Below, piece by piece: positions 1 to 36,483 of a stretch of DNA of 64,000 bases. The stretch is from a virus. How positions within the stretch are numbered: the stretch's first letter is position 1; each line of letters starts with the position of its first letter. Where the stretch lies: the IMG/VR virus record IMGVR_UViG_3300036851_000176, positions 1-64,000 of that record. One strand, 5' to 3'. A model generated the notes under the pieces. It saw only the letters and a list, made by a program, of their open reading frames with translations. It was not told where the DNA came from and searched no databases. Made by a program: the position numbers and the translations under genes.

Positions 1-252
1 GACGGCGATGAGCGCGCGATCTACGACGCTTTCAAGACGCGCCGAGTCGTGGCCGCTCAGATCGCGGCTGCGAGTTACAAGCCCGGAGACCGCGTGCGCT
101 TCACTGACGCGGTTCGGCCGAAGTACCTCATCGGAGTCGAGGCAAATGTCGTCAAAGTCAACGCCAAGACGGTCGTTGTCAAGATGGACTCTGTGCAGGG
201 ACGCTTCGGCGGCGAGACCCGCTGTCCGGCTGAACTGATCGAGGCCGTCTAA
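1..252 (+). CDS. Hypothetical protein, 5' end outside window
   Basis: The frame is open from base 1, so the start lies upstream of the window; an internal GTG at 49 is the first start codon visible. The visible 83 residues contain KPGDRVRF and a run of alternating hydrophobic residues (ANVVKVNAKTVVVKM), which suggests a small SH3/KOW-like beta barrel. Its stop TAA shares a base with the next ATG (TAATG). Function unknown. Confidence 0.6.
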   Translation, partial: DGDERAIYDAFKTRRVVAAQIAAASYKPGDRVRFTDAVRPKYLIGVEANVVKVNAKTVVVKMDSVQGRFGGETRCPAELIEAV

Positions 253-629
253 TGGCTGCCAAGGTCTACAGCCTGCCGGAAGGGTTGCCCGAGCCGGACT
301 TCGACATCTGCATCACGCAGGGATCGGATGCCTACTTCGCGGCATGCGAGGAACACGAAGAGGCCGTGCGCCAGTGGTGCATCGCGAACAGCGATAGCAC
401 GAGGCTACGCGGCAACATCGTCGGCAAGGTCATCAGCTTCGGCGTGGCGGACGGCAGGGCGCAGTACATGATCTACCGCCACTCCCCTCTGTCCCTCATC
501 CACCTGCCCTACGTGGACGCCTATGAGGCTCACCCGCTCATGCTCAAAGGGCTGACGCTCTTGGAGTGCAAGCGCATGGTGCGCGCGGACGAGAACCTTG
601 CCAAGTTGTTCGGACGGAGGGCATCATGA
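252..629 (+). CDS. Hypothetical protein (125 aa)
   Basis: Start ATG overlaps the previous stop by one base and the stop overlaps the next ATG by four, so it is translationally coupled on both sides. The protein is acidic at the N-terminus (EGLPEPDFDICIT) with two cysteines and no recognisable domain or membrane segment. Function unknown. Confidence 0.65.
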   Translation: MAAKVYSLPEGLPEPDFDICITQGSDAYFAACEEHEEAVRQWCIANSDSTRLRGNIVGKVISFGVADGRAQYMIYRHSPLSLIHLPYVDAYEAHPLMLKGLTLLECKRMVRADENLAKLFGRRAS

Positions 630-922
630 GCGCAAGACTTCCGAGTCCTGATAGCACAACCCTTGCGACCTGGGCCGAGAACGAAGCCCTGCCGATCGCA
701 CCGTGGCCCAAGACCGGCGAGTGCTCCTGCGGCTGCGACAACTGGCGCGACGTTGAGCACGGCTACGTCCGATCCTCTGGCGCGACATTCGAGGACGGCG
801 TGCTCACTGTCTACCCTGACGGATGGGACGATCTGAGCGAGAACGGCGACGGCGAGCGCTACGTCCAGTGTGAGTCTTGCGGCAAGCGCTATGACTACAC
901 CGGCGAAGTGAGTTACTTGTGA
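626..922 (+). CDS. Small zinc-ribbon-like protein
   Basis: ATG at 626 lies in an ATGA overlap with the previous stop and has a Shine-Dalgarno GGAGG just upstream, so it is preferred over the upstream in-frame ATG at 566. The 98-residue protein has a CxCxC cluster (ECSCGCDNW) and a later CESCGK pair, consistent with one bound zinc. Function unknown. Confidence 0.65.
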   Translation: MSARLPSPDSTTLATWAENEALPIAPWPKTGECSCGCDNWRDVEHGYVRSSGATFEDGVLTVYPDGWDDLSENGDGERYVQCESCGKRYDYTGEVSYL

Positions 923-1404
923 TCGCCACGGCTCTGACCGAGACCGCGCTGCGCGACTTCCTCGACCAGTACGCAACGGCGTCCGGCGACATTCAGGGCG
1001 ACCCGGCAACGATCGCGGCGGAAGCTGCTGCGGCCGGACTGGTTGAGCGCGACGGCGAGGCAGAGATTGAGGGCGATGCCGTCCTGCTGTATCGGGACAA
1101 GGTTGTTGTCAAGCATGACGACTATGTTGGCGATCCTCCGCTGCGCTGGATCATCGAGGAGTTAATCGCGATCGGCAGCGTGCCAGTCGTGAGCGGCTGC
1201 GAGCATGAGACCATCATCGAGTTTGACATTCCAGTCAAGTCTCTGTGGGTCGCGGCCGAGATGGTCCAGGAGTTGGACGTGACGCTCGCAGGCTACGGGG
1301 TCCATGTCAAAGATCAGCCGTTCGGATTCGCTGAGCGAAACATGGTGCGCGACGTATGGCGAAACACCTGCAACGAGGCCATGCGCCTCATGTACGCGCG
1401 ATGA
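919..1404 (+). CDS. Hypothetical protein (161 aa)
   Basis: GTG start in a GTGA overlap with the previous stop. Soluble, mixed alpha/beta protein; the N-terminal 55 residues are acidic, the middle holds LRWIIEELIAIGSVPVVSGCEHET. No family recognised. Confidence 0.6.
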   Translation: MIATALTETALRDFLDQYATASGDIQGDPATIAAEAAAAGLVERDGEAEIEGDAVLLYRDKVVVKHDDYVGDPPLRWIIEELIAIGSVPVVSGCEHETIIEFDIPVKSLWVAAEMVQELDVTLAGYGVHVKDQPFGFAERNMVRDVWRNTCNEAMRLMYAR

Positions 1405-1577
1405 TCTATCGACTCATGGAGCGGTACGGGCTGAACAGCCTTACGTTCGATCCGGCGAAGCTCGTATTCTCCATCGCGGCGATCGTATGCGCGGCCACGA
1501 CGCACTACACGGCAGGCATCATCCTGGCCGTGAGCGCTGGCACGGTCTCTCTCGGCATGACGTGGCGGCGGCTGTGA
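1401..1577 (+). CDS. Small membrane protein (58 aa)
   Basis: ATG lies in an ATGA overlap with the previous stop, which decides the start over an upstream in-frame ATG at 1356. Residues 15-52 (LVFSIAAIVCAATTHY then AGIILAVSAGTVSLGM) form two closely spaced hydrophobic segments separated by a short turn, so a two-pass inner membrane protein is likely. Role unknown. Confidence 0.6.
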   Translation: MIYRLMERYGLNSLTFDPAKLVFSIAAIVCAATTHYTAGIILAVSAGTVSLGMTWRRL

Positions 1578-1759
1578 GGGACATAGACCTGACCCGCTTG
1601 CAGGAGACCGGCAGCGCTCTACTGCCCCGCGCGAGCGAGACCCTAGCCTCTCTGCTGGAAGGTGTCGAGCAGTTGGGCATAGACCCCTCTCTAGTGACCG
1701 TTACGGGCGCTGGCGCGGCTCTGTGGCTCCGAGTCCAGCCGCTAGAGGACAAGCCCTGA
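1574..1759 (+). CDS. Hypothetical protein (61 aa)
   Basis: GTG start in a GTGA overlap with the preceding membrane-protein gene. Helical protein with a coiled-coil-like stretch (ETLASLLEGVEQLGI). It is the last gene before a 154-base non-coding gap that holds a strong hairpin and two copies of the 18-bp inverted repeat. Confidence 0.5.
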   Translation: MRDIDLTRLQETGSALLPRASETLASLLEGVEQLGIDPSLVTVTGAGAALWLRVQPLEDKP

Positions 1760-1793
1760 GAACGGCTCCTGTGGCTTCCTGGGCCGACAAGAT

Positions 1794-1830
1794 CGAGCCT
1801 GCCGACTCTCTCCTGTGTTCGGCAGGCTCG
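1794..1830 (+). terminator. Strong intergenic hairpin, probable terminator
   Basis: A perfect 12-bp inverted repeat (CGAGCCTGCCGA / TCGGCAGGCTCG) with a 13-base loop lies between the 1574-1759 gene and the ligase promoter. There is no T-tract, only AATATC after the stem, so intrinsic termination is inferred from position and stem strength. It would separate the upstream operon from the ligase unit. Confidence 0.5.
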
Positions 1831-1839
1831 AATATCAAG

Positions 1840-1857
1840 ATCCCCCTTTCGGGTGAG
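1840..1857 (+). promoter_or_regulatory. 18-bp inverted-repeat element, copy a
   Basis: ATCCCCCTTTCGGGTGAG. It is in tandem with copy b, with starts 23 bp apart. It matches the consensus ATCCCCCnnnnGGGTGAT shared by six sites in 1.8-10.2 kb. Unlike the other copies it is not at the fixed 33-34 base distance from a start codon, so it may be an auxiliary site for the ligase promoter. Confidence 0.6.
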
Positions 1858-1862
1858 AGCAG

Positions 1863-1880
1863 ATCCCCCTTTCGGAGGAT
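1863..1880 (+). promoter_or_regulatory. 18-bp inverted-repeat element, copy b
   Basis: ATCCCCCTTTCGGAGGAT ends 33 bases before ATG 1914, the same spacing seen for copies c-f. The element would lie just upstream of, and slightly overlap, the -35 region if transcription starts at the ATG. Confidence 0.65.
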
Positions 1881-1901
1881 GCGAGACTGGCTCCGATGGA
1901 C

Positions 1902-1907
1902 GATGAT
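1902..1907 (+). promoter_or_regulatory. Candidate -10 of leaderless ligase promoter
   Basis: GATGAT followed by 6 bases and ATG 1914. It lacks the first T of TAnnnT, like the other inverted-repeat-linked promoters, which would fit a promoter needing an activator. Inferred only from alignment with the other sites. Confidence 0.4.
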
Positions 1908-1913
1908 GAGAGT

Positions 1914-3056
1914 ATGGAAATGACTCCCCTGCCCACTCTCTACAAGCGAGCCAGCGACGGATCGATCCAGGAATGGACCATCCGCGTGGGCACGGACACG
2001 TCCGGCCACGGCTGGATCGTGACGGACTACGGCAAGGTCGGCGGCAAGATTCAGCGGACCGAGGACGTAGTGACCGAGGGCAAGAACGTGGGCCGCGCGA
2101 ACGAGACCACGGCGGTTGAACAGGCCGAGGCCGAGGCGCTGAGCAAGTGGGAAGGAAAACTCAAGAAGGGCTACGTCAAGACGATCGAGGAAGCGCGCGA
2201 GGGCAAGACGGACGCGCTCATCGTCGGCGGCGTGGCTCCCATGCTCGCGCATCCGTTCGCAAAGTACGGCCACAAGATCAAGTTCCCTGCGCTCGCGCAG
2301 CCGAAGCTCGACGGACACCGCTGCATCGCCGTCTATCAGAACGGCGAGGCGCGGCTGTACTCCCGGACGCGCAAGCCGATCACCGGACTGCCCCACGTCT
2401 GCCGAGCCATTGAATCATTGTGTCGGTCTATCGGCGCGACGAGCGGAGTGTTCGACGGCGAACTTTACAACCACGACTACCACGACAACTTCGAGGACCT
2501 GACGGGCTTCATTCGCTCGCAGACTCCTAAGCCTGGTAGCGAGGTAGTCCAGTATTGGATCTACGACCTTGTGAACGACTCACCGCAGTCCGCTCGCGCG
2601 GAGGCTATCGCTGCTATCTCGGAGCAGAGCGTAGGCGCGCTGGTCGCGGTTCCGACGATCGAGGTTGCAGACGAGGACGAAATGGTCGCGCTGTTCGGGG
2701 AGTTCATGGGCCAGGGCTACGAAGGTCTCATGCTCCGTAACCTGGACGGCCGCTACAAGATCGACGGCCGCAGTTACGACCTACAGAAGGTCAAACTGTT
2801 CCAGGACGCCGAGTACAAACTGGTCCACATCGAATCGGGCCGAGGCAAGATGCAGGGCAAGGCCGTGTTCCACTGTGAGGTTGAGCCTGGCAAGACCTTC
2901 AAGTGCAAGTTGGTCGGTCGCCTGGACGATCTGGAACAGTACCTCAACGAGCCGGACAAGTGGCTTGGCAAGATGGTGACTGTCCAGTTTCAGAACCTCT
3001 CATCGGACGGCATCCCCCGCTTCCCCGTCGCCCTTCGATTCAGGCAGGACGTATGA
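1914..3056 (+). CDS. WGR-domain ATP-dependent DNA ligase
   Basis: Seals nicks in DNA with ATP. Residues about 5-85 resemble a WGR domain (LYKRASDGSIQEWTIRVG, then GWIVTDYGKVGGK), a DNA-end or nucleic-acid-binding fold. From about 105 the ligase core follows, with the adenylation motif KxDG in AQPKLDGHR (lysine near residue 131), FDGELYN, EGLMLRN and, in the OB-fold region, DLQKVKLF. At 380 residues it is typical of small phage ligases plus one extra N-terminal domain. ATG 1914 is chosen because it lies 33 bases after inverted-repeat copy b with a 6-base gap to a -10-like hexamer; an in-frame ATG at 1896 would add six residues. It forms its own transcription unit after a hairpin and is the first gene of the next coupled series. 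Confidence 0.92.
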   Translation: MEMTPLPTLYKRASDGSIQEWTIRVGTDTSGHGWIVTDYGKVGGKIQRTEDVVTEGKNVGRANETTAVEQAEAEALSKWEGKLKKGYVKTIEEAREGKTDALIVGGVAPMLAHPFAKYGHKIKFPALAQPKLDGHRCIAVYQNGEARLYSRTRKPITGLPHVCRAIESLCRSIGATSGVFDGELYNHDYHDNFEDLTGFIRSQTPKPGSEVVQYWIYDLVNDSPQSARAEAIAAISEQSVGALVAVPTIEVADEDEMVALFGEFMGQGYEGLMLRNLDGRYKIDGRSYDLQKVKLFQDAEYKLVHIESGRGKMQGKAVFHCEVEPGKTFKCKLVGRLDDLEQYLNEPDKWLGKMVTVQFQNLSSDGIPRFPVALRFRQDV

Positions 3057-3274
3057 GGGCAACCCCGCTCAGGCGCAGGCTCCCGAGCGTCGGAATCAAA
3101 CTGATCGACACCTTCAACCTTCGCACGGTCGAGGTCCTCGAAATCCACTCAGGCGAGTTGGGTAGCAAGGGCGGCAGTCCGGGCTTGCCACTCCTGTACG
3201 TTCGTGACCTTCTGACGGGCGACACCTACGGACGATGCTCGATCTACTTCTCTGACCTGGCAGAGTGCGCATGA
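3053..3274 (+). CDS. Hypothetical protein (73 aa)
   Basis: ATG in an ATGA overlap with the ligase stop. Basic N-terminus (MRATPLRRRL) followed by a beta-rich body. No family recognised; co-transcribed with the ligase. Confidence 0.6.
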   Translation: MRATPLRRRLPSVGIKLIDTFNLRTVEVLEIHSGELGSKGGSPGLPLLYVRDLLTGDTYGRCSIYFSDLAECA

Positions 3275-3471
3275 CTTTCTTCCTCTGCACTCGGTTCGAG
3301 AACAACAGCGGCATCCAGGCGATCGTCAACGCTCCAAACACAAGGGCTGCGCGGCTGCGCGCGGCTGATCCGTACTATGGCGCTCCTGGCATTGTCCGAC
3401 TCGCCACCCAGGATGAGATTGACTGGCACCTGGGATTCGGCGGCACGATCATCGAGGCGTCATCATCATGA
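3271..3471 (+). CDS. Hypothetical protein (66 aa)
   Basis: ATG 3271 overlaps the previous stop by four bases; a GTG at 3265 is possible but less consistent with neighbours. Small soluble protein (TFFLCTRFENNSGIQAIVN). Function unknown. Confidence 0.55.
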   Translation: MTFFLCTRFENNSGIQAIVNAPNTRAARLRAADPYYGAPGIVRLATQDEIDWHLGFGGTIIEASSS

Positions 3472-3671
3472 CGCCGAGACAGGTATTTGCTGACATCGTG
3501 TCCGAGGCTTTGGCCGAGGCTGTCGAGCGTGAGGTCAAGGTCGCCTATCGCAACGGCTACCGAGACGCGGCTGCGGCCTACGGCAATCCTCTCGAAGCCG
3601 TACAGCGCGCCTACGCGGAGGCCGACCTCAAGTCCGAGGTCTACGCGGCCGAGTTGGCAGAGGATCAATGA
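3468..3671 (+). CDS. Hypothetical helical protein (67 aa)
   Basis: ATGA overlap on both sides. Almost entirely helical, with heptad-like spacing (VSEALAEAVEREVKVAYRNG) and many alanines. No family recognised. Confidence 0.55.
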   Translation: MTPRQVFADIVSEALAEAVEREVKVAYRNGYRDAAAAYGNPLEAVQRAYAEADLKSEVYAAELAEDQ

Positions 3672-4075
3672 TCGATCACGTCAAAGACGACGCCGATCGG
3701 CCGAATGAGTTGGTCACGATCGGGTCGCGCTGGTTCGGCTGGCGACACCATTGGACAGTCATGGAAGAGAGGCGAGGCCACTATGGCGTAAGAGAAGTCC
3801 GGTTCGTCCGTGACGACAAGCCTGGCGTCCCCTCGACCGAGCGCCGCGTCCGAGACCAATGGCTCCCGGCATGGAGAATCCAGAGGTTCTGCGATCGGCA
3901 GGGCGACGTTGAAGTGCCCGAGCGCGAGCGCACGCGATCGAAGAGGATCGCTACGACCGAGCCGAAGGTCAAGCCCGCGCGCAAGGGGATCAAGCGCAAG
4001 GCTCCGGTCAAGCCCGCGACCGCGAAGCGGAAGCGCAAGACGACGGCGCGCAAGCGCCCGAGCGGACGGAATTAG
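3668..4075 (+). CDS. Protein with lysine/arginine-rich tail
   Basis: The 135-residue protein has a folded N-terminal part rich in Trp (SRWFGWRHHWTVMEE, DQWLPAWRI), then from about residue 85 a disordered tail of K/R/P/A/T (VKPARKGIKRKAPVKPATAK). The tail resembles histone H1-like or nucleoid-associated tails, so nucleic-acid binding is a fair inference; the fold of the N-terminal part is unknown. Overlaps both neighbours at ATGA/TAGTG junctions. Confidence 0.6.
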   Translation: MIDHVKDDADRPNELVTIGSRWFGWRHHWTVMEERRGHYGVREVRFVRDDKPGVPSTERRVRDQWLPAWRIQRFCDRQGDVEVPERERTRSKRIATTEPKVKPARKGIKRKAPVKPATAKRKRKTTARKRPSGRN

Positions 4076-4542
4076 TGAAGGCTGGCAACAAAACGGCCGA
4101 GCCGAGAGTGTACGAGCTTTGGCTGACGAAGTACGTCAAGGACGCCTACGAGGACCAGACCGGCGCGAAGCATTGGGGCAACATCGTTTGGGGTCGCATC
4201 CTCGTCACCGAGATTGCGCGCTTCGCTGGCTACGAGGGCTACGGCCAGAAGTGGTACCCCGATGTCAACATCGCGGCCGAGGACGATGATGGTCGCATCT
4301 TCCACGGCATCGCGAACCTGATCGACTATTGGGGAGGGATGTCCTGGCGCATGGTCTACGGCGAGAGCGAGGGTGAGCCCGAGGGTTACTTCTGGCACAG
4401 CGCTCCCCATAAGCCAACAGGGTACGTCTACAAGGACGGCCATGGTCCGGTCGAGAAGTTGCTTGCCCCGAAGCCGAGACCGCTGCGCGAGGCAGAGAAG
4501 TCCACGCATCCCCCGAGACCGCCAAGGCCGTTGAAGGCATGA
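4075..4542 (+). CDS. Hypothetical protein (155 aa)
   Basis: GTG start sharing a base with the previous TAG. Rich in aromatic residues (VYELWLTKYVKDAYEDQ, GYGQKWYPDVN), with a Pro-rich C-terminal tail (THPPRPPRPLKA). No family recognised. Confidence 0.6.
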   Translation: MKAGNKTAEPRVYELWLTKYVKDAYEDQTGAKHWGNIVWGRILVTEIARFAGYEGYGQKWYPDVNIAAEDDDGRIFHGIANLIDYWGGMSWRMVYGESEGEPEGYFWHSAPHKPTGYVYKDGHGPVEKLLAPKPRPLREAEKSTHPPRPPRPLKA

Positions 4543-4622
4543 CGCTGCGAGAATGGCTCACGCACGAAGCCCTGCGGCACAACGTTCCCGTCTACCTCTT
4601 TCTCTCATGCTGCGGTCTCTGA
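4539..4622 (+). CDS. Possible 27-aa peptide gene
   Basis: ATG in an ATGA overlap with the preceding stop opens a short frame ending at TGA 4622; the product ends VYLFLSCCGL and has a hydrophobic second half. It bridges the gap between the 4075 and 4607 genes. Support is only the conserved overlap style. Confidence 0.3.
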   Translation: MTLREWLTHEALRHNVPVYLFLSCCGL

Positions 4623-4741
4623 GATTCATCCTCGACGCGCCTACCGTGCGCTCGTTCTTCTGGCGCATCGCATACTCGCTTGACTTCAAGACCGCAAGGG
4701 TTCTACTTGGCAATCGACCACGAAAGGAAGGGCATCGATGA
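4607..4741 (+). CDS. Hypothetical basic peptide (44 aa)
   Basis: Ends in a TGA that overlaps the next ATG (4738) by four bases, which supports the frame. Start ATG 4607 overlaps the end of the preceding peptide frame; an upstream ATG at 4553 is also in frame. Contains an amphipathic, aromatic stretch (FFWRIAYSLDF) and a basic C-terminus. Confidence 0.4.
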   Translation: MLRSLRFILDAPTVRSFFWRIAYSLDFKTARVLLGNRPRKEGHR

Positions 4742-5055
4742 CCCTCCTAGCACAGGACTGGTTCCAGTCCACGCACTACCATTCCGAGTCGCGAGACGAG
4801 GACGTGGAGATTCAATACATGCCGGTTCCGCATGCTCTGCATGCGCTCAACAAGATCCGGTATGACTACGGACTCGAAGCGCTCAAGACTCCGCTCGCGC
4901 GGGCGCTGGCACTGCGTGTCGCTCAGGCTGGCGACATCGAGGAAGTCCCTGGCTCCCAGGATCGGCGTCACGGCCGCGTCCTGCTGCTCGTGGACGCGCT
5001 GACCCGGACGTTCAAGGGTCTCTACCGGCGCTATCCCCTCGTGGAGTCACGCTGA
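4738..5055 (+). CDS. Hypothetical protein, paralogue of the 7914 gene
   Basis: 105 residues with a good Shine-Dalgarno (GAAAGGAAGGG). The segment NKIRYDYGLEALKTPLARAL aligns with AKIERTLGYEALESPLAQAL of the protein at 7914-8231, and both have a -QD-W- patch before it, so the two genes arose by duplication. Function unknown. Confidence 0.65.
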   Translation: MTLLAQDWFQSTHYHSESRDEDVEIQYMPVPHALHALNKIRYDYGLEALKTPLARALALRVAQAGDIEEVPGSQDRRHGRVLLLVDALTRTFKGLYRRYPLVESR

Positions 5056-5234
5056 TCCTCCCCGTCCTACTTCGGCTCGAAGAGGACGAAGCTCTGGCTC
5101 TCGATGTCGTGCTCGACTGCTTCTTTACGGAGTTGGCCGAGTACGACATTGAGCCGGACGACGCGATCGTTCGGCTGGCCGCAAAGGTCGGCATCGAGAG
5201 GATGCAGAAGATGGAGACAGAATCCCCCATTTAG
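5052..5234 (+). CDS. Hypothetical protein with CTG start (60 aa)
   Basis: A 61-codon frame begins at CTG 5052 in a CTGA overlap with the previous stop, exactly like the ATGA/GTGA junctions elsewhere, and no ATG or GTG occurs at its beginning. The product is acidic and helical (LRLEEDEALALDVVLDCFF, PDDAIVRLAAKVG). Its last codons (TESPI) fall inside inverted-repeat copy c. An internal GTG at 5109 is the alternative start. Confidence 0.5.
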   Translation: MILPVLLRLEEDEALALDVVLDCFFTELAEYDIEPDDAIVRLAAKVGIERMQKMETESPI

Positions 5235-5239
5235 GGGAT
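5222..5239 (+). promoter_or_regulatory. 18-bp inverted-repeat element, copy c
   Basis: ATCCCCCATTTAGGGGAT, with ATCCCC/GGGGAT arms. It ends 33 bases before ATG 5273 and overlaps the 3' end of the preceding gene, so it acts at DNA level rather than as coding sequence. Confidence 0.7.
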
Positions 5240-5260
5240 GGTTCTTCGTCGTTTCCTGAC

Positions 5261-5266
5261 GATACT
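5261..5266 (+). promoter_or_regulatory. Candidate -10 of leaderless promoter
   Basis: GATACT, 6 bases before ATG 5273, which has no Shine-Dalgarno. Paired with inverted-repeat copy c. Confidence 0.4.
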
Positions 5267-5272
5267 TAGGCC

Positions 5273-5713
5273 ATGGCCGAATACACAAACATCACACAGG
5301 ACGAAATGGCGGACTTCCTGGGCGACCAGGGATTCCTACAGATCCTCCTGCCGGGAGTGACGGAGTTGGTCTACGCGCGGCGCGCGAACACCGACGACCT
5401 CAGCCTCTCCCTTCGCGTCTATACCGGCATCGCCCCGAGTGGCGAGAGCAGGGACGTGGGCGAGGATGCGATCCGCTGCGTGATCTTCTGGCGCAAGCCG
5501 AGCGGTGACATCGTGAAGGTAGCGACCACGAAGCGCGTCCATCGCGTCAAGGGCTGGCGCAAGAACCTCCAGGACCGCCTCGACAAGATCGGCGTCGAGA
5601 AGCGCTGCGAGTGCGGCGCTCCGATGATCCGGCGCAAGGCCAAGGCTGGCCGAGGGTCTGAATTTTACGGCTGCTCCACCTTCCCCGAGTGCCGCAAGAC
5701 GAGTTCTGTATGA
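5273..5713 (+). CDS. Protein with C-terminal topoisomerase-type zinc ribbon
   Basis: 146 residues. The first 105 are an unknown mixed alpha/beta domain (ITQDEMADFLGDQGF, then VFWRKPSGDIVKVATTKR). The last 35 (KRCECGAPMIRRKAK, then FYGCSTFPECRKT) match the four-cysteine zinc ribbon found at the C-terminus of bacterial topoisomerase I and many nucleases, so DNA binding is likely. It lacks a Shine-Dalgarno and is first in the unit controlled by inverted-repeat copy c, followed by the glycosyltransferase. Confidence 0.75.
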   Translation: MAEYTNITQDEMADFLGDQGFLQILLPGVTELVYARRANTDDLSLSLRVYTGIAPSGESRDVGEDAIRCVIFWRKPSGDIVKVATTKRVHRVKGWRKNLQDRLDKIGVEKRCECGAPMIRRKAKAGRGSEFYGCSTFPECRKTSSV

Positions 5714-6768
5714 AGATCACTGTCCTGATCCCCTCGCACAACGAGGAAGCCGTGATCGCTCGCTCGATCGAGAGCGTCCTGGCTCAGACTCGACGGCCGG
5801 ACAGGATCATCGTTGTGGCCGACAACTGCACCGACAGGACAGAAGAGATTGCGCGCGAGTGCGGTGCGGAAGTGTTCGAGACCGTGGACAACAAGCATCG
5901 CAAGGCCGGTGGGCAGAATCAGGCGCTCGCGTGGCTGCTGCCGACGCTGAGCGACGAGGACCTCATCGTCTCGATGGACGCGGACACAATGCTCTCGCCG
6001 GAGTTCTTGCGTAACGCCTCTCGCCACTTCTCGATCCGCCCTGGTCTCGGAGCGTGCTCATCGAATCACCTGGTCCACGAGGCGAGCCGACTGGTCGAAA
6101 CTTTGCAGGAAATGGAGTACGAGCGCGACCGGCGCTACACCGGCCGAAAGCGCGGGAGGGTCGGCTGCATGACGGGCATGGCCTCCATGTTCTCCGTGAG
6201 TGCGCTCAGGCGCATCATCGAGTTGCATGGCACCGTCTACGACGAGGGCAACTGGACCGAGGATTGGAAACTGACCTTCGCGCTCAAGCACGCGGGCTAC
6301 CGCTGCATCCGTCCGCAGGACTGCACGGCGGCGACCGTCCCTGTCCCTCGCTGGCGCGAGTTGTTCGTCCAGCGCGAGCGTTGGGGTCGCGGCTACTTCC
6401 AAACGATCTGCGAGTTCGGCCTCACGCGACAGACCCTACAGCCGTGGCTCTCGCAGGCATGGGGAGCGCTCACTTCGATGATCTGGCTGGTCTGGATGAT
6501 CCTCCTGGCGGCGTCGATCGCCCGAGCGCATGAATTTCATTTCCCGCTGTGGTGCTATGCGACGACGGGCATCTTTATCACCGAGCGAGTCGTGACGGTC
6601 AGGAAGGCTGGCTGGCGCGCGGCGCTCATCGCGGGGCTGTACCTGCCCGAGATTCTGTACTCCTGGTGGCTCGTCGGAGCTACCTACTTCGGAGTTGCCA
6701 AGCATCTGCTTGGCCGTCAAGGCCAGTGGGGCGACGTTCGCGCCACCGGCAAAGCCACGATCACCTAG
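5710..6768 (+). CDS. Membrane GT2 glycosyltransferase, processive type
   Basis: 352 residues starting in an ATGA overlap. The cytosolic GT-A domain has the nucleotide-sugar region (ITVLIPSHNEEAVIARSIES), a metal-binding DxD (MDADT, 89-93), the catalytic TED (WTEDW, about 183) and QRERW (about 221-225), the QxxRW motif of processive enzymes such as chitin, hyaluronan and poly-N-acetylglucosamine synthases. Residues about 245-335 hold three hydrophobic segments that would form the export channel. The enzyme should sit in the host membrane and make or extend a surface polysaccharide; the sugar cannot be read from sequence. It is followed at once by the LPYTG protein. Confidence 0.88.
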   Translation: MKITVLIPSHNEEAVIARSIESVLAQTRRPDRIIVVADNCTDRTEEIARECGAEVFETVDNKHRKAGGQNQALAWLLPTLSDEDLIVSMDADTMLSPEFLRNASRHFSIRPGLGACSSNHLVHEASRLVETLQEMEYERDRRYTGRKRGRVGCMTGMASMFSVSALRRIIELHGTVYDEGNWTEDWKLTFALKHAGYRCIRPQDCTAATVPVPRWRELFVQRERWGRGYFQTICEFGLTRQTLQPWLSQAWGALTSMIWLVWMILLAASIARAHEFHFPLWCYATTGIFITERVVTVRKAGWRAALIAGLYLPEILYSWWLVGATYFGVAKHLLGRQGQWGDVRATGKATIT

Positions 6769-6782
6769 AAGGGAGGTACTGC

Positions 6783-6938
6783 ATGTACGGACACTCAGCA
6801 CCGCCAAGCACCGCTGTCGGCGTGGCAGGAGTTCTGCCCTACACCGGACTTGGGCTTATCTGGATCGCCGTGATCGCTTTGACGATTCTGTCGGTCGGGT
6901 TTGCTCTGCTTCGGGTGATTCCTCGGCGCGAGGTCTGA
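6783..6938 (+). CDS. Small LPYTG sortase-substrate-like membrane protein
   Basis: 51 residues with a strong Shine-Dalgarno (AAGGGAGG). Residues 18-22 are LPYTG, followed by a hydrophobic segment (LGLIWIAVIALTILSVGFAL) and a positively charged end (RVIPRREV): the three parts of a Gram-positive cell-wall sorting signal in the right order. The 17 residues before LPYTG are too short to be a normal signal peptide plus mature domain, so it is a minimal tag or a membrane protein that merely resembles one. The window also encodes a sortase at 18064-18540. Confidence 0.75.
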   Translation: MYGHSAPPSTAVGVAGVLPYTGLGLIWIAVIALTILSVGFALLRVIPRREV

Positions 6939-6956
6939 TCGTTGCACGCTGCGGTT

Positions 6957-6975
6957 CCCGGATCGAGGGTCCGGG
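6957..6975 (+). terminator. Intergenic hairpin
   Basis: CCCGGA / TCCGGG arms with a 7-base loop, followed by only two T, in the gap after the LPYTG gene and before the next promoter. Possible terminator of the 5273-6938 unit. Confidence 0.3.
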
Positions 6976-7042
6976 TTCCCGGAGCGCCACGACGGCGATC
7001 CTCTCACAATCCGAGCACAAGGGAGCCAAAAATGAACACAGA

Positions 7043-7060
7043 ATCCCCCGAAAGGGTGAT
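7043..7060 (+). promoter_or_regulatory. 18-bp inverted-repeat element, copy d
   Basis: ATCCCCCGAAAGGGTGAT, ending 34 bases before ATG 7095. If translation began at the upstream ATG 7032 the element would lie inside the coding region. Confidence 0.7.
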
Positions 7061-7082
7061 TGCAAATCAGGTCTCGATGTCA

Positions 7083-7088
7083 CATGCT
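7083..7088 (+). promoter_or_regulatory. Candidate -10 of leaderless promoter
   Basis: CATGCT, 6 bases before ATG 7095. The first base of the hexamer is not T, as at the other inverted-repeat-linked sites. Confidence 0.35.
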
Positions 7089-7094
7089 GAGACC

Positions 7095-7220
7095 ATGAAA
7101 CCAGGAATGACACTCCCCCTCAGCGCTATCGCTCTCGCAGTCGGGATCAGCCTCGTCCTTTGGGCCATCCTCTTCGCGGCCGTGATCGGCGGATACAAGG
7201 CGATTGAGGCCGTCCTGTGA
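7095..7220 (+). CDS. Small single-pass membrane protein (41 aa)
   Basis: A hydrophobic segment (LSAIALAVGISLVLWAILFA) occupies most of the protein. ATG 7095 has no Shine-Dalgarno but sits at the fixed distance from inverted-repeat copy d. ATG 7032 is in frame, has GGGAG upstream and would add 21 residues (MNTESPERVIANQ...); both may be used. Stop overlaps the next GTG. Confidence 0.6.
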   Translation: MKPGMTLPLSAIALAVGISLVLWAILFAAVIGGYKAIEAVL

Positions 7221-7408
7221 ACGATCTGACGCACCCCTTCGCCAGTCGCGAGTTGAAGCGCAAGCCCGCTCCGAGTTACCTCTGGCTCGATCTTCCGGTC
7301 GAGGCCGACGAGGTTACGGACGAGCCTGCGACCATGCCCGTCCACCTGGGGCATGCGCCCCTATCGCATCACGGCCGAGCAACTGGACGCTCTGATCGAG
7401 TCCCATAG
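7217..7408 (+). CDS. Hypothetical protein (63 aa)
   Basis: GTG in a GTGA overlap with the preceding stop. Acidic middle (VEADEVTDEPATM); the last 20 residues (HAPLSHHGRATGRSDRVP) look unlike a natural C-terminus, and a better-looking frame begins at 7353, so a frameshift between the two is possible. Confidence 0.45.
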   Translation: MNDLTHPFASRELKRKPAPSYLWLDLPVEADEVTDEPATMPVHLGHAPLSHHGRATGRSDRVP

Positions 7409-7466
7409 CCGCTTCCCGCAGAAGATCCCCCAAACGGGTGATAGAAAAGGCTCAGAAAATGAGTAA
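7353..7466 (+). CDS. Possible 37-aa protein or 3' part of the 7217 gene
   Basis: ATG 7353 opens MRPYRITAEQLDALIESHSR..., which reads as a normal helical segment and overlaps the end of the 7217 frame by 56 bases. It is either a separate overlapping gene or the true C-terminus of 7217 after a frameshift. Inverted-repeat copy e lies within its 3' end. Confidence 0.4.
   Translation: MRPYRITAEQLDALIESHSRFPQKIPQTGDRKGSENE
7425..7442 (+). promoter_or_regulatory. 18-bp inverted-repeat element, copy e
   Basis: ATCCCCCAAACGGGTGAT, ending 34 bases before ATG 7477. The downstream gene appears displaced by the HNH endonuclease on the opposite strand. Confidence 0.7.
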
Positions 7467-7470
7467 GGAT
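7465..7470 (+). promoter_or_regulatory. Candidate -10 of leaderless promoter
   Basis: AAGGAT (TAAGGAT with the preceding T) followed by GGGACC and ATG 7477. The ATG opens a frame running antisense through the HNH gene, so the promoter may now be separated from its original gene. Confidence 0.4.
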
Positions 7471-7494
7471 GGGACCATGAAGCAGGATGACCAT

Positions 7495-7965
7495 TCAGGA
7501 ACGAGGATGCCAACGAGCCGCCGCGCCTGCGTGAGCGAACTTCCGAATAGGGAAACCATGTTCGGCATGATGAGCAGCCTGATCGACACAGAGCTTCAGG
7601 TTCTCGATCCGGTTGTCGGCCACATCCTCGTTCCTGTGATGGACCTGCTCCTCTGGGTCCAACATTCTGCCAAGATGGTTCGCCATCACCAGACGATGCT
7701 CTCGAACGTATCCATGGCTATCCGCCATCGGATGCTCTGGAATCCTCAGCAGGATGTATCCATCCTTGTCGGTCGTCCACCCCTTTCGATTAGAGTTGTG
7801 TCCTTGGCAATATTCGCGCCAGTCTCCGCGTTTGTATCCAAGGCGAGAGTTAGAACGAGTGTGGCGGCTTACGGGCCTGCCGCAGTTGCACTTGCAGAGA
7901 GGGGCGGGGTCAGATGACGGGGGCAATTCCAGGACTTCCAATTTCTGTTGAGGAATATTTCTCAC
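7495..7965 (-). CDS. HNH homing endonuclease
   Basis: Opposite in strand to all its neighbours. The core (GYVREHRLVMANHLGRML, then EQVHHRNEDVADNRIENLKL) is the HNH_3 type with HH, N and N in the expected places, which cuts DNA using one metal ion. An N-terminal CKCNCGRPV...CQGH cluster may bind zinc. The 5' end is uncertain: GTG 7965 and TTG 7941 are in frame, no good Shine-Dalgarno is visible, and the region overlaps the start of the 7914 gene. It sits between inverted-repeat/promoter copy e and the 7914 gene, as expected for a mobile insertion. Confidence 0.88.
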   Translation of the reverse strand: MRNIPQQKLEVLELPPSSDPAPLCKCNCGRPVSRHTRSNSRLGYKRGDWREYCQGHNSNRKGWTTDKDGYILLRIPEHPMADSHGYVREHRLVMANHLGRMLDPEEQVHHRNEDVADNRIENLKLCVDQAAHHAEHGFPIRKFAHAGAAARWHPRS

Positions 7966-8231
7966 AGGACGAATGGTACTGGTCGGAGAGTAAGCAAGAG
8001 CGGATTCAGATCAAGAAATGTCCATGCCCGGTCGCGATGCGCGCGCTGGCGAAGATCGAGAGGACTCTTGGGTATGAAGCCCTCGAATCCCCGCTCGCTC
8101 AGGCTCTCAAGGCCCGAGCCGAGCAGGGGATCGGGGCAGAGTTGGTCGAGTTCGACGGACCGACCGGCCCGCGCATGATGCTCCGAGACAAAGAGACCAA
8201 GACGTTCCGCGCAGGCGCGAGTCGGATCTAA
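7914..8231 (+). CDS. Hypothetical protein, paralogue of the 4738 gene
   Basis: 105 residues; LAKIERTLGYEALESPLAQA matches the 4738 protein. The paralogue begins close to the shared -QD-W- patch, so the first 20 residues here (TGAIPGLPIS...) may not be original, and insertion of the HNH gene may have replaced the true 5' end. Function unknown. Confidence 0.6.
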   Translation: MTGAIPGLPISVEEYFSQDEWYWSESKQERIQIKKCPCPVAMRALAKIERTLGYEALESPLAQALKARAEQGIGAELVEFDGPTGPRMMLRDKETKTFRAGASRI

Positions 8232-8232
8232 G

Positions 8233-8505
8233 GTGCGATCCGTTGCGGGCATCCTGCTCACACCCATCGCTCTCGTCCTCGGCAGCCTGCCGGGAAAGTG
8301 GTTCGATCCTCCCGAGGTTCCCGAGGAAGCGGACGATGAGACCCGGTGGGACTCCTACCATCCCTGCATGGGCTGCGGGACGCCCCTCTCGACGCGGCGG
8401 AAGTTCTGCGACGATCAGTGTCGGCGCGAGTACCGCATGCGGGAGATCAACGCGGAAGCCCCGACTGAACGAATTGATCCCTCGACTACGGACATTCCCT
8501 TCTGA
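8233..8505 (+). CDS. Small protein with CxxC...CxxxC zinc-binding motif
   Basis: GTG start one base after the previous stop. A hydrophobic N-terminal segment (VAGILLTPIALVLGSLPG) is followed by PCMGCGTPLSTRRKFC and DDQC, a treble-clef-like cysteine arrangement, and a charged tail. Could be membrane-tethered. Function unknown. Confidence 0.6.
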   Translation: MRSVAGILLTPIALVLGSLPGKWFDPPEVPEEADDETRWDSYHPCMGCGTPLSTRRKFCDDQCRREYRMREINAEAPTERIDPSTTDIPF

Positions 8506-8729
8506 TGCCTGACTTCGACAAGAGCGCGAGGAAGCGCATTAACCGAGCCATCCAGACCGCTCGCGAGTGTGCGAGTGCCGACCCCGGACTGGCAGACATT
8601 CGGCTAAAGCGCTTCCACCGCGCCATGGACGATCTTGTGTCCGAGGACGAGGGCTACGAGGTCTACAAGACGCTGCGCACCGAAGGCTGGTACGAGCAAG
8701 CTGCAGCGGCGTTGGAGCGATCGAAGTGA
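8505..8729 (+). CDS. Hypothetical helical protein (74 aa)
   Basis: ATG shares a base with the previous TGA. Helical, charged, no cysteines or membrane segment (INRAIQTARECASADPGLAD). No family recognised. Confidence 0.55.
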   Translation: MPDFDKSARKRINRAIQTARECASADPGLADIRLKRFHRAMDDLVSEDEGYEVYKTLRTEGWYEQAAAALERSK

Positions 8730-9259
8730 AGTCTCGCGACGAGTGCAACTGCCTCTGCCACACGATGCCGAACGTGCGTCACGTCATGGCGTGCTGCGAC
8801 GGCCTGCCGTTTGGCGAAGGTAAGGACGCGATGATTCGCGAGGCCGATCGCCTGCTTGGGTGGGCTGAGTTCAACCTGACCAAGGGCAAGGTCGAGGCCA
8901 CACTCACCCTCATCGCCAAGGCACGGCGCGCTCTCGGAAGCGAGAGCATCAACACTCAGTTTCCTCCGCTCCCCATGGAACCGGCCGAGGCTCCGCATGC
9001 TCGCGTTCCTGTCGCCGGTCGCTTCGTGCTCCTGTCTCACCCCGACGAGGGCTACTGCACGTCTTGGGACACCTGGGAAGAGGCTAGCGTTGCGTTCGAG
9101 CGATCGGACGGGACCGGAGCGGCGCGGCGCATCCCCACAGGCAGGTTCGATCGAGACCTGACTGCGCGCATGCCAGCGGGGTTCAAGTTGTTCGACCAGG
9201 AGACCGGCCGGACGTGGCTCCCTGGCGCTCGTTACTACTGGGAGGACGCGGCAACCTAA
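8726..9259 (+). CDS. Hypothetical protein with Cys/His N-terminus (177 aa)
   Basis: GTG in a GTGA overlap. Begins with ECNCLCHTMPNVRHVMACC, a dense Cys/His cluster like the one ending the protein at 9498 (CGCECHQ), so both may bind zinc. Helical middle followed by a beta-rich C-terminal half (RFVLLSHPDEGYCTSWDTWE). Function unknown. Confidence 0.6.
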   Translation: MKSRDECNCLCHTMPNVRHVMACCDGLPFGEGKDAMIREADRLLGWAEFNLTKGKVEATLTLIAKARRALGSESINTQFPPLPMEPAEAPHARVPVAGRFVLLSHPDEGYCTSWDTWEEASVAFERSDGTGAARRIPTGRFDRDLTARMPAGFKLFDQETGRTWLPGARYYWEDAAT

Positions 9260-9498
9260 TGGCTGCGCGAGACTTCCCAGGATTCTCCGACGCCGAGCAG
9301 AACCTCGTCTTGAGGCTCATGCTGCACAACGCCGAGAGCCGCGAGCGGACGAGGGAAATGCTCTACAACTCGGAACGAGCGGCGCACGAGCGCACGCGAG
9401 CCGAGATGGAGCGCCTGAGCCACATGCTCGACGCACGAGACCGGCGTATGGCCTGGCTCGCGGGCGAAGAGTGGGACGACGATCAAGGAGACTGGTGA
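9259..9498 (+). CDS. Coiled-coil protein (79 aa)
   Basis: TAATG junction with the preceding gene fixes the start. Arg/Glu-rich amphipathic helix (SRERTREMLYNSERAAHERT) consistent with a dimeric coiled coil, and an acidic end (EEWDDDQGDW). Confidence 0.55.
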   Translation: MAARDFPGFSDAEQNLVLRLMLHNAESRERTREMLYNSERAAHERTRAEMERLSHMLDARDRRMAWLAGEEWDDDQGDW

Positions 9499-9713
9499 TG
9501 CCGGAACTTGCCGAGCAGCGGAATCTTTTCTCTCTGCGGGCAGACATCACGTCTGTCTGCCACGACGGGCTGCATGGACTGTGCTCGACGCGCCTCTGCG
9601 TCAACCCGGAGGACGGCTGGCACAACGCTCGCTATCAAGCGTGCGGGTGCGAGTGTCATCAGGTGCCACCGCATCTGGCGTACCTGTACTCCGACGACAA
9701 CGCGCTCGACTGA
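9498..9713 (+). CDS. Cysteine-rich small protein (71 aa)
   Basis: TGATG junction start. Cysteines at CHDGLHGLC, LC and CGCECH could coordinate one or two zinc ions. Function unknown. Confidence 0.55.
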   Translation: MPELAEQRNLFSLRADITSVCHDGLHGLCSTRLCVNPEDGWHNARYQACGCECHQVPPHLAYLYSDDNALD

Positions 9714-9964
9714 TGATCGACTTCAAGGACGCCGTTCTCGGCGTGGTGCAGGGTGATCCCGACGCGGCTCAACTCTTGCATCAGCTTAGAAGCACAATGC
9801 CAGCAGAGTACGAGCGGCTGGTCATGCACCTGTACGAGCGAGGCCCACGAGGTCATGCGCTCTGCGAGCAGTTCGAGGATCGGTGCGACCGAGATGTTCT
9901 CGTCCTGGGCCGGGACCTGATCGCCCGAGCCAGTGAATTTGACAAGGCAGGGTGGGATGCCTGA
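9713..9964 (+). CDS. Hypothetical protein (83 aa)
   Basis: TGATG junction start. Helical and acidic (FKDAVLGVVQGDPDAAQLLH), no recognised domain. Confidence 0.55.
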   Translation: MIDFKDAVLGVVQGDPDAAQLLHQLRSTMPAEYERLVMHLYERGPRGHALCEQFEDRCDRDVLVLGRDLIARASEFDKAGWDA

Positions 9965-10214
9965 AACGAATCCACACAAGAAGAAAAGCAAGGGTTGGGG
10001 TCATGAGAGTGAATACACTCGCCAGTTGCGGGAGAAATCGCTCGACAATGTGATCGTGACCGAATGCCTCTTGTGCGGCAGCAGCGTCAAGAAGCCCGCT
10101 CGCGAAGGGATCGCCTGGTTTCGTAAGCATGCAGAGACCGCTAGACATAAGCGCAACCTCGCGAAACACAAGATCACCCGTTCGGGTGATAGCGCTCCGA
10201 AGAGAAAGAGGTAA
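9957..10214 (+). CDS. Basic protein with C2H2-like zinc finger (85 aa)
   Basis: Lys-rich ends flank TECLLCGSSVKKPAREG...KHAETARH, a CxxC-x17-H-x5-H pattern like single nucleic-acid-binding fingers. Its last 14 codons (KITRSGDSAPKRKR) contain inverted-repeat copy f. Confidence 0.6.
   Translation: MPETNPHKKKSKGWGHESEYTRQLREKSLDNVIVTECLLCGSSVKKPAREGIAWFRKHAETARHKRNLAKHKITRSGDSAPKRKR
10173..10190 (+). promoter_or_regulatory. 18-bp inverted-repeat element, copy f (perfect palindrome)
   Basis: ATCACCCGTTCGGGTGAT: arms ATCACCCG/CGGGTGAT are perfectly complementary around TT. It ends 34 bases before ATG 10225, inside the 3' end of the upstream gene. Confidence 0.72.
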
Positions 10215-10218
10215 TGAT
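10213..10218 (+). promoter_or_regulatory. Candidate -10 of leaderless promoter
   Basis: AATGAT (TAATGAT with the preceding T) followed by CTGACT and ATG 10225, which has no properly spaced Shine-Dalgarno. Confidence 0.4.
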
Positions 10219-10224
10219 CTGACT

Positions 10225-10410
10225 ATGAGCAGGGAGGAATTCAAGGAAGCAACCGGGTTCTACCCCACGCCGAACATGCTGCTTCTCGCCAACGAGATGC
10301 AGGACGTGGCAGTTCGCATGTGCCTCGAAGAGAGCGTGGACTTCACGATCCTCGCTCTCGAAGGAATCGTGATCGGTCTCCGACCGATGTCCACCGGAGG
10401 AATGAACTGA
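10225..10410 (+). CDS. Hypothetical protein (61 aa)
   Basis: First gene after inverted-repeat copy f. Helical protein (MLLLANEMQDVAVRMCLEES) of unknown role. It heads a coupled run of small genes to about 12 kb. Confidence 0.55.
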   Translation: MSREEFKEATGFYPTPNMLLLANEMQDVAVRMCLEESVDFTILALEGIVIGLRPMSTGGMN

Positions 10411-10664
10411 TGGGACGAATTCTTATCTGGCACGACAAGCATGGCCCTGCCCACTACTCGGCTGATACCGATGTTCAGTTGCACGAAGCAGCCCTGACCG
10501 TTTTGGCCGAGCGCGTCGAGTATGGGTACATCTTCTGGCCAGAGAATGCCGAGGAGACCGCTTATGGAATTCTCGATCGCCAAGACGGGGTTGCGGCTCT
10601 GGCGTTCCTTCAAGAACGAAACGACCACGAGTACGAGAGAATCAGCATCGAGGAAACGAGATGA
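10410..10664 (+). CDS. Hypothetical protein (84 aa)
   Basis: TGATG junction start. Acidic, aromatic-rich (MGRILIWHDKHGPAHYSADT; VEYGYIFWPENAEET). No family recognised. Confidence 0.55.
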   Translation: MGRILIWHDKHGPAHYSADTDVQLHEAALTVLAERVEYGYIFWPENAEETAYGILDRQDGVAALAFLQERNDHEYERISIEETR

Positions 10665-10942
10665 ACGAAGGCTCCCGCAAGACTGGACACAAGATCGGCT
10701 CGAATCGCGGCATCCTTTCCGCTCGTCGTGAGCGACGGCGCGAAGAGGCCGAGGCTCGTCAGCGCGAGCACGATAAACTGACTCCCGACGAGAAGCTGCG
10801 CAAGTTGGACAAACGGCACAACGTCGGGAAGGCAAGCGGATTCTCAGAGCGAGAGCGCGCCAAGTTGCGCGCGGCTGCCGAGAAGGTCTCCCTCAAAGAG
10901 CGACGAAAGAAGAAAGGAAGAAAGAATGACTCTGTTTCCTGA
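10661..10942 (+). CDS. Basic, highly charged helical protein (93 aa)
   Basis: ATGA overlap start. Long Arg/Glu/Lys helices (ARRERRREEAEARQREHDKL; SERERAKLRAAAEK) and a KKKGRK end. Likely nucleic-acid or protein scaffold binding, but no family is recognised. Confidence 0.55.
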   Translation: MNEGSRKTGHKIGSNRGILSARRERRREEAEARQREHDKLTPDEKLRKLDKRHNVGKASGFSERERAKLRAAAEKVSLKERRKKKGRKNDSVS

Positions 10943-11156
10943 TTGGGAAGCCCGACACGCAATCGAGCAGATCGTCGAAGCGCTGAACAAGACTGCTCAG
11001 ACGATCGTTACCGTCGCGAACGGCGAGAGAAAAACCGCCGAGAAGTTCCTGGACCTGTTCGAGAAAATCGCGAACAATCAGACGCTACTCGCCACGGCCG
11101 TTTCAGAACTGTCCGGTCGAATCGATCGTCTGGAAAGGCTCAACGAGATCCGGTGA
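10926..11156 (+). CDS. Coiled-coil protein (76 aa)
   Basis: ATG 10926 lies inside the end of the previous gene with AAGGAAG upstream. Heptad pattern in IEQIVEALNKTAQTI and LATAVSELSGRIDRLERLN suggests a coiled coil. Function unknown. Confidence 0.55.
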   Translation: MTLFPDWEARHAIEQIVEALNKTAQTIVTVANGERKTAEKFLDLFEKIANNQTLLATAVSELSGRIDRLERLNEIR

Positions 11157-11362
11157 GGACCGTCGCCTGCAAAGAGTTATCCGCCAGCGAAGGCAAGGTG
11201 GTAGTTGTCGGAACCACCTGCCCCTTCTGCGGCAGGGCGCTCAGCGAGCACAAGGAAGTCGAAGATGTCCCCGAAGTCCACAAAGTCCACACGATCGAGG
11301 CGAAGGAGGTAGGCACCGATGGCGCAGTCGTCCACAAAGCCAAGCGGGAGCGAGCGGCCTGA
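11153..11362 (+). CDS. Small CxxC protein (69 aa)
   Basis: GTG in a GTGA overlap. One CPFC motif, then His- and Glu-rich sequence (EVEDVPEVHKVHTIEAKEVG). Function unknown. Confidence 0.5.
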   Translation: MRTVACKELSASEGKVVVVGTTCPFCGRALSEHKEVEDVPEVHKVHTIEAKEVGTDGAVVHKAKRERAA

Positions 11363-11534
11363 TGCCTCGATGGATGCCAAACTCAACGGCGTGGTCGTAG
11401 GGGAGAACGGCAACGTGATCGTTCCTGTCCCCTACGACAAGTCGGTCGAGGGTAAGGTGGCGTGGGCAGTCGCCTTCCCGCGAGACCACTGGACTCCCGA
11501 GTTCTGGGCGTCTTGCCGACCGGGTGAACTTTAA
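11319..11534 (+). CDS. Hypothetical protein (71 aa)
   Basis: ATG 11319 has AAGGAGG nine bases upstream and begins inside the preceding gene. Disordered Ser/Thr-rich start followed by a beta-rich body (GVVVGENGNVIVPVPYDKS). An ATG at 11370 is a possible shorter start. Confidence 0.5.
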   Translation: MAQSSTKPSGSERPDASMDAKLNGVVVGENGNVIVPVPYDKSVEGKVAWAVAFPRDHWTPEFWASCRPGEL

Positions 11535-11824
11535 TGGGCAAGCGCGCGCCATGGGATCGCACCGTTCACGCCGAGTACCAGGACGTAGAGATCGTGCGCT
11601 ACGACCGACAGGGACACTGGTACATCGAGCCAATCGGTTTCGCAACTCTTCGGCGCCAGAAGGTCAACCTTCGGGCAGCAGTAGAGCAAGCGATCTGGGC
11701 GATCAACTATCCCGGGGTGAACGGACGAGTCTACATCGGCCTTCCGGGAGGCGGCGCATTCGATGCTCGCTTCCGCAAACTCACGGGCATAGACATCAGG
11801 CATGGTCAGGTCTACGGCCAATGA
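11534..11824 (+). CDS. Hypothetical protein (96 aa)
   Basis: TAATG junction start. Mixed alpha/beta, rich in aromatic residues (YQDVEIVRYDRQGHWYIEPI). No family recognised. Confidence 0.55.
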   Translation: MGKRAPWDRTVHAEYQDVEIVRYDRQGHWYIEPIGFATLRRQKVNLRAAVEQAIWAINYPGVNGRVYIGLPGGGAFDARFRKLTGIDIRHGQVYGQ

Positions 11825-12033
11825 AGCCTTGGGAGCACCCCGACGCAGCGGACCAGATTCCGAACCCCGAAGGGAGCGACGACGGCAGCGCATCGGCCAA
11901 GAATTTGTACGACCAGGGAGTCATCAAGGCGATGGAGGCAGTGCTCATCGCCATAGACTCCGGAGCATCCATCTCGCAAATCCGCGAGGCAGCGGAACAG
12001 ACAATCTCACGACTAGGAAAGGAAGACACATGA
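11821..12033 (+). CDS. Hypothetical helical protein (70 aa)
   Basis: ATGA overlap start. Asp/Pro-rich N-terminus, then a helical C-terminal part (VIKAMEAVLIAIDSGASISQ). Function unknown. Confidence 0.5.
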   Translation: MKPWEHPDAADQIPNPEGSDDGSASAKNLYDQGVIKAMEAVLIAIDSGASISQIREAAEQTISRLGKEDT

Positions 12034-35586: not shown

Positions 35587-35595
35587 TCGTCCTCC

Positions 35596-35844: not shown

Positions 35845-35855
35845 TCTAGCAGACC

Positions 35856-36470: not shown

Positions 36471-36477
36471 GGGCCAC

Positions 36478-36483
36478 ATCATA
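36478..36483 (-). promoter_or_regulatory. Leaderless-type promoter -10 (TATGAT)
   Basis: TGaTATGAT, an extended -10, then GTGGCCC and ATG 36470. Lies just after the stop of the glycine-rich gene. Confidence 0.5.

Follow-up and report, generated by a model that had tools for sequence, protein, structure and literature searches.

Why does one 18-base-pair (bp) palindrome recur at a nearly fixed distance from start codons in the DNA of a virus, and which protein could read it? The question is raised by a stretch of 64,000 nucleotides (nt) (the window), i.e., bases 1–64000 of the 146,625-bp virus record IMGVR_UViG_3300036851_000176 (G000), whose source is a large, uncultured soil phage. An earlier note on the window described six palindromes and proposed that they act at the DNA level, as operator or activator sites placed immediately before the −35 position in leaderless promoters, and that they delineate a phage regulon; as judged from sequence, this proposal was supported by every comparative test. 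It is reasonably probable, in our estimation, that the host encodes a BldM-like activator which drives the regulon from a class-II site on leaderless promoters. Beyond the earlier proposal, the regulon was found to include a UvrD-like helicase gene and rIIA/rIIB-like genes, the site proved to be equal to that of BldM, and Thermoleophilia appeared to use the same promoter design.

The palindrome and its promoters in the phage record

The six copies are all present on the + strand where they had been described. Copy 2 (ATCCCCCTTTCGGAGGAT, 1863–1880, 22.0 bits), copy 3 (ATCCCCCATTTAGGGGAT, 5222–5239, located with the weight matrix described below), copy 4 (ATCCCCCGAAAGGGTGAT, 7043–7060, 26.1 bits), copy 5 (ATCCCCCAAACGGGTGAT, 7425–7442, 26.1 bits), and copy 6 (ATCACCCGTTCGGGTGAT, 10173–10190, 27.4 bits, a perfect dyad) end 33, 33, 34, 34, and 34 nt, respectively, before an ATG. 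Copy 1 (ATCCCCCTTTCGGGTGAG, 1840–1857, 21.2 bits) is a second, tandem copy situated 23 bp before copy 2. The putative −10 hexamers, exactly those listed in the earlier note, follow copies 2 and 3 at 21 nt (GATGAT, 1902–1907; GATACT, 5261–5266) and copies 4, 5, and 6 at 22 nt (the divergent CATGCT, 7083–7088; AAGGAT, 7465–7470, identical to the hexamer of a host promoter in L413; AATGAT, 10213–10218). The genes opened by these leaderless ATGs, likewise on the + strand, encode an ATP-dependent DNA ligase (1914–3056; Pfam PF01068, E 7e-19), a zinc-ribbon protein (5273–5713; PF01396), which is the first in an operon with a glycosyltransferase (5710–6768; PF13641), a membrane protein of 41 amino acids (aa) (7095–7220), a 146-aa protein of no known family (7477–7917), and a 61-aa protein (10225–10410). 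The suggestion that three copies lie inside the 3′ ends of upstream genes held clearly for the copy at 10173 and, for that at 5222, only if a short open reading frame (ORF) is real, the count of three being dependent on the gene calls; outside the window, the copies at 138829, 139576, and 143197 lie in 3′ gene ends in more than one reading frame.

The whole record was scanned with a symmetric weight matrix built from 16 promoter copies (cut-off 12 bits). Above this threshold, 30 sites were scored where Markov-random sequence should give 1.4, which excludes chance; 28 of them fall within 132.0–146.6 kb and 1.8–10.2 kb, along a block of rightward small genes; the other two are weak (12.1 bits). 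About 27 copies are strong, of which 12 lie outside the window at 136.2–145.4 kb and a further nine or ten in an array at 132.07–132.47 kb, so the window represents just the tail of the set. The first and the last 174 bp of the record are the same but for one mismatch, indicating that it is probably circular (as an assembly) or terminally redundant; because the ends overlap, 132–146.6 kb joins 1–12 kb as one block. Near its beginning, at 132,075–132,474 (L129:12075-12474), nine or ten palindromes with a consensus near ATCCCTCGWWCGAGGGAT and without start codons make up this array, located where gene orientation changes between leftward and rightward; it could be an enhancer, an origin, or a sponge. 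An Rfam scan of the palindrome block gave no credible match.

The layout of the promoters is uniform: 12 copies in the record sit 33 or 34 nt upstream of an ATG, and the −10 hexamer follows the palindrome by 21–22 nt and precedes the start codon by 6 nt. The five hexamers of the window are mostly divergent, while elsewhere in the record the tightly conserved (G)CCGATAMT is found. Together with two further phage contigs, G007 and G009 (see below), the association could be counted: the palindrome accompanies 9 of 9 GATAMT-N6-ATG strings in G000, 11 of 11 in G007, and 6 of 7 in G009. The offset between the two elements was 21 nt in 20 cases, 22 nt in seven, and 20 and 23 nt in one each, where ~0.012 would be expected per offset. 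Alignment of 31 leaderless promoters revealed no conserved −35 element and no further motif between the palindrome and the −10.

Apart from the ligase gene and the zinc-ribbon/glycosyltransferase operon, palindrome promoters of this phage head a gene for a UvrD-like helicase (136,284), an rIIB-like gene (ATG 145,442), and a 12-codon leader ORF (143,248) running into an rIIA-like gene. This leaderless ORF (MESSTNTGGTTV, 143,248–143,283; L130:8248-8283) has a Shine–Dalgarno sequence within it and extends over the beginning of the rIIA-like gene, which suggests translational coupling of the two. The rIIA-like protein is related to those of Stanwilliamsviridae; the palindrome is absent from Stanwilliamsviridae phages and from L131. 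Two more copies, at 140449 and 142357, are followed by a −10 and lack the ATG. Since these two promoters, and those of another phage (G002) with the site and a −10, occur without leaderless ATGs, the conserved unit is the promoter and not an element of translation or of the start codon. No obvious gene is found in the stretches that follow the same two promoters (L130:5509-6110 and L130:7412-7560), so non-coding transcripts are possible; the folding of the candidate RNA after 140449 was ordinary (z −0.62).

Recurrence in other phages and in Thermoleophilia

Other phage contigs carrying the element were reached by pattern scans of IMG/VR and by whole-record searches, and these searches, extending the 18-mer at its spacing from ATG to the whole genome and to other phages, recovered the same layout. 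The contigs G007 (93.8 kb, 67% G + C) and G009 (54.9 kb, 62% G + C) possess leaderless promoters like those of G000; G002 combines the same site with GATAAT and a leader, and G004 and G006 combine the same site and spacing with −10 hexamers of the TAGACT type. In an all-against-all blastp comparison, few proteins were common to G000, G007, and G009, and almost none were shared with the group of G002, G004, and G006. Related phages that keep the genes and lose the repeat or its spacing would speak against the proposed role; the opposite was seen, as unrelated phages retain the repeat and the spacing, and their genes differ. In contig L423, one palindrome serves two divergent leaderless promoters at 21 and 22 nt, as a symmetric dimer would predict, and a single palindrome at 840 in G009 is likewise used in both directions. 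Nearly all leaderless promoters of G009 (L309–L311) contain an extra 14-bp dyad, TGTACCCGGGTACA, between the palindrome and the −10, which is probably a separate, second (repressor) operator. G007 (L304–L308) encodes a proteasome subunit-like protein, a sortase, and a phage integrase, hence it is probably temperate on an actinobacterium.

Among known phages, the exact perfect palindrome gave just isolated, chance-like matches, and none in Streptomyces phages. Megablast of window positions 1–12000 against 50,697 phages returned no match, and a tblastn search with the terminase returned a single weak one. The viral matches of a GGGTGAT composite pattern in L425–L432 were rejected: they are not palindromes but two unrelated sequences repeated in similar contigs.

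The palindrome is equal to the site of the BldM homodimer (Group I), TCACcCgnncGgGTGA. The copies at 10173 and 138829 match this 16-bp consensus at 16 of 16 positions, and the others vary at the C/A and C/T positions. The consensus was obtained by a motif search in the targets from chromatin immunoprecipitation sequencing and confirmed by a DNase I footprint, and BldM mainly activates its targets (PMC4125116). The BldM probe sequence used here had a 100% identical match in three sampled genomes.

A scan of bacterial genomes for the palindrome 21 or 22 nt before GATAMT gave 35 matches, five labelled Thermoleophilia and two Actinomycetota. Five of these seven represent one orthologous promoter before a cyclic di-GMP (c-di-GMP) gene, which encodes a GGDEF/HD-GYP membrane protein; the domains were named from sequence, and the HD domain was confirmed with Pfam in related genes. 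A second promoter, with 21 nt between the site and GATACT, precedes a PilB-like gene (named by eye from its sequence) in the genomes G016 and G019. Across seven such genomes, the bare palindrome occurs 19 times vs. 0 for the reversed control. Matches in other bacteria (Stenotrophomonas, Acinetobacter, beta-proteobacteria) were judged to be unrelated, since their surrounding sequences differ and some are terminator-like.

Two of the 19 bare sites are located just past a gene for a stand-alone helix-turn-helix (HTH) protein of the LuxR type (~110–125 aa); a sigma-70 gene lies on its upstream side, and an HD-GYP gene follows. This HTH gene was found in 16 of the 119 sampled Thermoleophilia genomes. 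In 17 of 18 loci, its stop codon is followed by a palindrome at a distance of 29–173 nt, and these regions had 23 sites over 6.3 kb, as compared with 1 over 52 kb elsewhere. The −10-like hexamers at these loci (CAGACT, GAGGAT, AAGGAT, GACGAT) are also spaced at 21 nt. The protein shares 57% identity with the HTH of BldM across 68 residues, and the recognition helices of the two are nearly identical.

Another pointer to the host is an FtsH-like membrane AAA protein of G000 (113,505–115,643; L128:9505-11643), 60% identical to a G007 protein. Its closest sampled cellular relatives are found in two Thermoleophilia genomes (57–58%), and Streptomyces shows only housekeeping-level similarity. Taken with the promoter matches, this protein points to a candidate host of G000 in Thermoleophilia (soil Actinomycetota) or a neighbouring group.

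Candidate activator and rival explanations

Each palindrome is predicted to bind a symmetric dimeric HTH activator of the LuxR/NarL type resembling BldM. The dyad would have its centre ~42–43 bp before the transcription start and would border on the −35 position of a promoter with the extended −10 (G)CCGATAMT and no conserved −35; the bound dimer would recruit RNA polymerase (class-II activation). Transcription would begin at the A of the ATG, yielding leaderless mRNAs, although this start is inferred. If it is correct, the centre of the dyad falls at ~−42.5 or −43.5, where class-II sites are located; in class-II activation by LuxR-type proteins, the lux box is likewise near −42.5. The leading candidate for the activator would be the stand-alone HTH protein encoded beside the sigma-70 gene in Thermoleophilia, whose own locus harbors the palindrome. 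Early/middle genes of the phage (helicase, ligase, rIIA/rIIB-like, glycosyltransferase) would thereby be tied to a regulator with which the host controls c-di-GMP and pilus genes. Since unrelated phages share the layout, and possible hosts have it next to a regulator gene, the phage probably ties its expression to a control protein of the host.

Several findings weigh against this picture. Thermoleophilia lack a BldM ortholog (the best match has 43% identity), and the perfect BldM 16-mers of Streptomyces genomes (1–2 per genome) have no −10 at 21–22 nt; for these two reasons, we do not assign the phage promoters to the BldM regulon. Thermoleophilia chromosomes rarely contain the exact composite promoter (4 of 249), and one locus (L400) possesses the HTH gene and no clear palindrome. 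The tentative assignment of Thermoleophilia as the host draws on promoter matches and one protein, G000 has a weak LuxR-like HTH ORF of its own, and a repressor would equally yield a dyad overlapping the −35.

The ORF just mentioned brings in the best-surviving alternative, namely an activator encoded by the phage, e.g., the 96-aa LuxR-like HTH ORF at 108,760–109,050 (−), governing a switch from early to middle genes. Phages often encode their own middle-gene activators (such as MotA of T4), and the ORF in question is a weak match of the GerE/LuxR type (20 bits; 19.7 bits). Still, its recognition helix is unlike those of the host HTH and BldM (30% over 61 aa), and no such protein was detected in G009, G002, G004, or G006 (11.5 bits in G007) despite the common site and spacing, with the reservation that some records may be incomplete. 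Neither all-against-all blastp nor a GerE search, Pfam on G007 and G009, or a hidden Markov model of the host HTH found a common phage-encoded regulator; the phages are devoid of an HTH protein of the Thermoleophilia type, and only G000 has the weak, different ORF. Since the host chromosomes, moreover, display the same promoter design beside an HTH gene of their own, we regard a phage-encoded activator as unlikely.

The palindromes might otherwise be operators of a repressor (a phage immunity repressor or a host silencer), whose dimer over the −35 region would shut the promoters. A dyad overlapping the −35 is compatible with this, and the array of nine or ten copies at 132.07–132.47 kb recalls multi-operator arrays, of which the L5 stoperators are an example. 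However, the distance to the −10 is fixed at 21–22 nt in several phages and hosts, there is no −35 to block, the protein with the matching site, BldM, is mainly an activator, and the dyad between the palindrome and the −10 in G009 makes a better repressor operator. A repressor is, on this balance, a rather poor candidate.

Promoters of an alternative sigma factor, with the palindrome as the −35 determinant and GCCGATAMT as the −10, appear very improbable. The −10 of sigma28/WhiG is GCCGATAA, and the strongly conserved extended −10 resembles it, but TAAA is missing at −35, most copies read GATACT rather than GATAA, an 18-bp dyad is not a sigma −35 element, and the promoters of G004, G006, and the host HD-GYP genes retain the palindrome and the spacing with TAGACT, CAGACT, or GAGGAT. 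As for a hairpin with a GNRA/UUCG-like loop acting in the leader at the RNA or translation level, CCC-GAAA-GGG and CCC-TTTC-GGG could fold, but the palindrome would not be transcribed from its own promoter, as the −10 lies downstream of it, and sites preceding transcripts without an ATG and a palindrome serving two divergent promoters make this explanation negligible.

A broader version of the host-encoded activator is put forward tentatively, as a possibility we would not yet favour: several unrelated phages of Actinomycetota might, independently of one another, have connected their early/middle regulons to a BldM-like c-di-GMP/pilus regulator of the host, so that transcription would be gated by its developmental or surface state. 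This would be an actinobacterial counterpart of CtrA-based lytic deferment, with one geometry for host promoters and for the leaderless promoters of the phages. More generally, the element provides uncultured actinobacterial phages with a promoter signature that is readable and portable. It also connects phages lacking isolates with a candidate class of hosts and singles out a small host HTH protein, so far uncharacterised, as the likely activator. If the proposed host-encoded activator is right, phage expression in abundant soil Actinomycetota would hinge on a developmental/c-di-GMP regulator of the host.

Comparable regulatory systems and neighbouring features

Among the known systems closest to the phage element are the BldM Group I promoters of Streptomyces (PMC4125116): their 16-bp palindrome is identical to the best phage copies, it is bound by a dimer of a LuxR-type HTH protein, and the effect is mainly activation. 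Those are promoters of developmental genes, whereas here phage promoters are concerned, and the consensus tolerates ATCCCYC halves. A parallel in biological logic is provided by CtrA sites in pili/flagellotropic phages of Alphaproteobacteria (“lytic deferment”, PMC9437464), where clustered sites for an appendage-linked host regulator occur independently in the promoters of unrelated phages. In the present case, predicted regulator sites are enriched in promoters of unrelated phages, and the candidate host, at the sequence level, uses the same site for few appendage genes (PilB-like, in G016 and G019). The phylum, the regulator family, and the site are different, though, and here every promoter has one rigid geometry around the putative binding site, most of them being leaderless.

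Repeated inverted elements just upstream of many actinophage start codons are also represented by the start-associated sequences (SAS) and extended SAS (ESAS) of Cluster K mycobacteriophages and Cluster EF Microbacterium phages (PMC3203893, PMC7302621). SAS are repeats of 13 bp located where the ribosome binds, and ESAS are paired 17-bp repeats with a spacer of 4–13 bp, in contrast to the single 18-bp dyad with a −10 and leaderless ATGs described here; a 13-bp repeat of the SAS type at the ribosome-binding position is absent from the G000 promoters, in which 6 nt separate the −10 and the ATG. Stoperators of the L5 type are asymmetric 13-bp repressor sites scattered over the genome, whereas the 18-bp dyad occurs in a single block only and is linked to promoters.

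Streptomyces phage Mildred21 (L132) resembles G000 in having a repeated intergenic palindrome upstream of TAGACT promoters and a related rIIA gene. Its palindrome differs in length (17 bp), sequence (TGTCCG...CGGACA), and distance from the −10 (~35 nt). At 34958–41760, in the terminal early region, the TGTCCG-nnnnn-CGGACA type of palindrome occurs nine times, often ~35 nt upstream of TAGACT promoters, and apparently represents another family of regulated phage promoters. In addition, G000 carries ~25 transfer RNA genes and a gene for transfer-messenger RNA, clustered at L127:16641-19602 and L128:605-2755.

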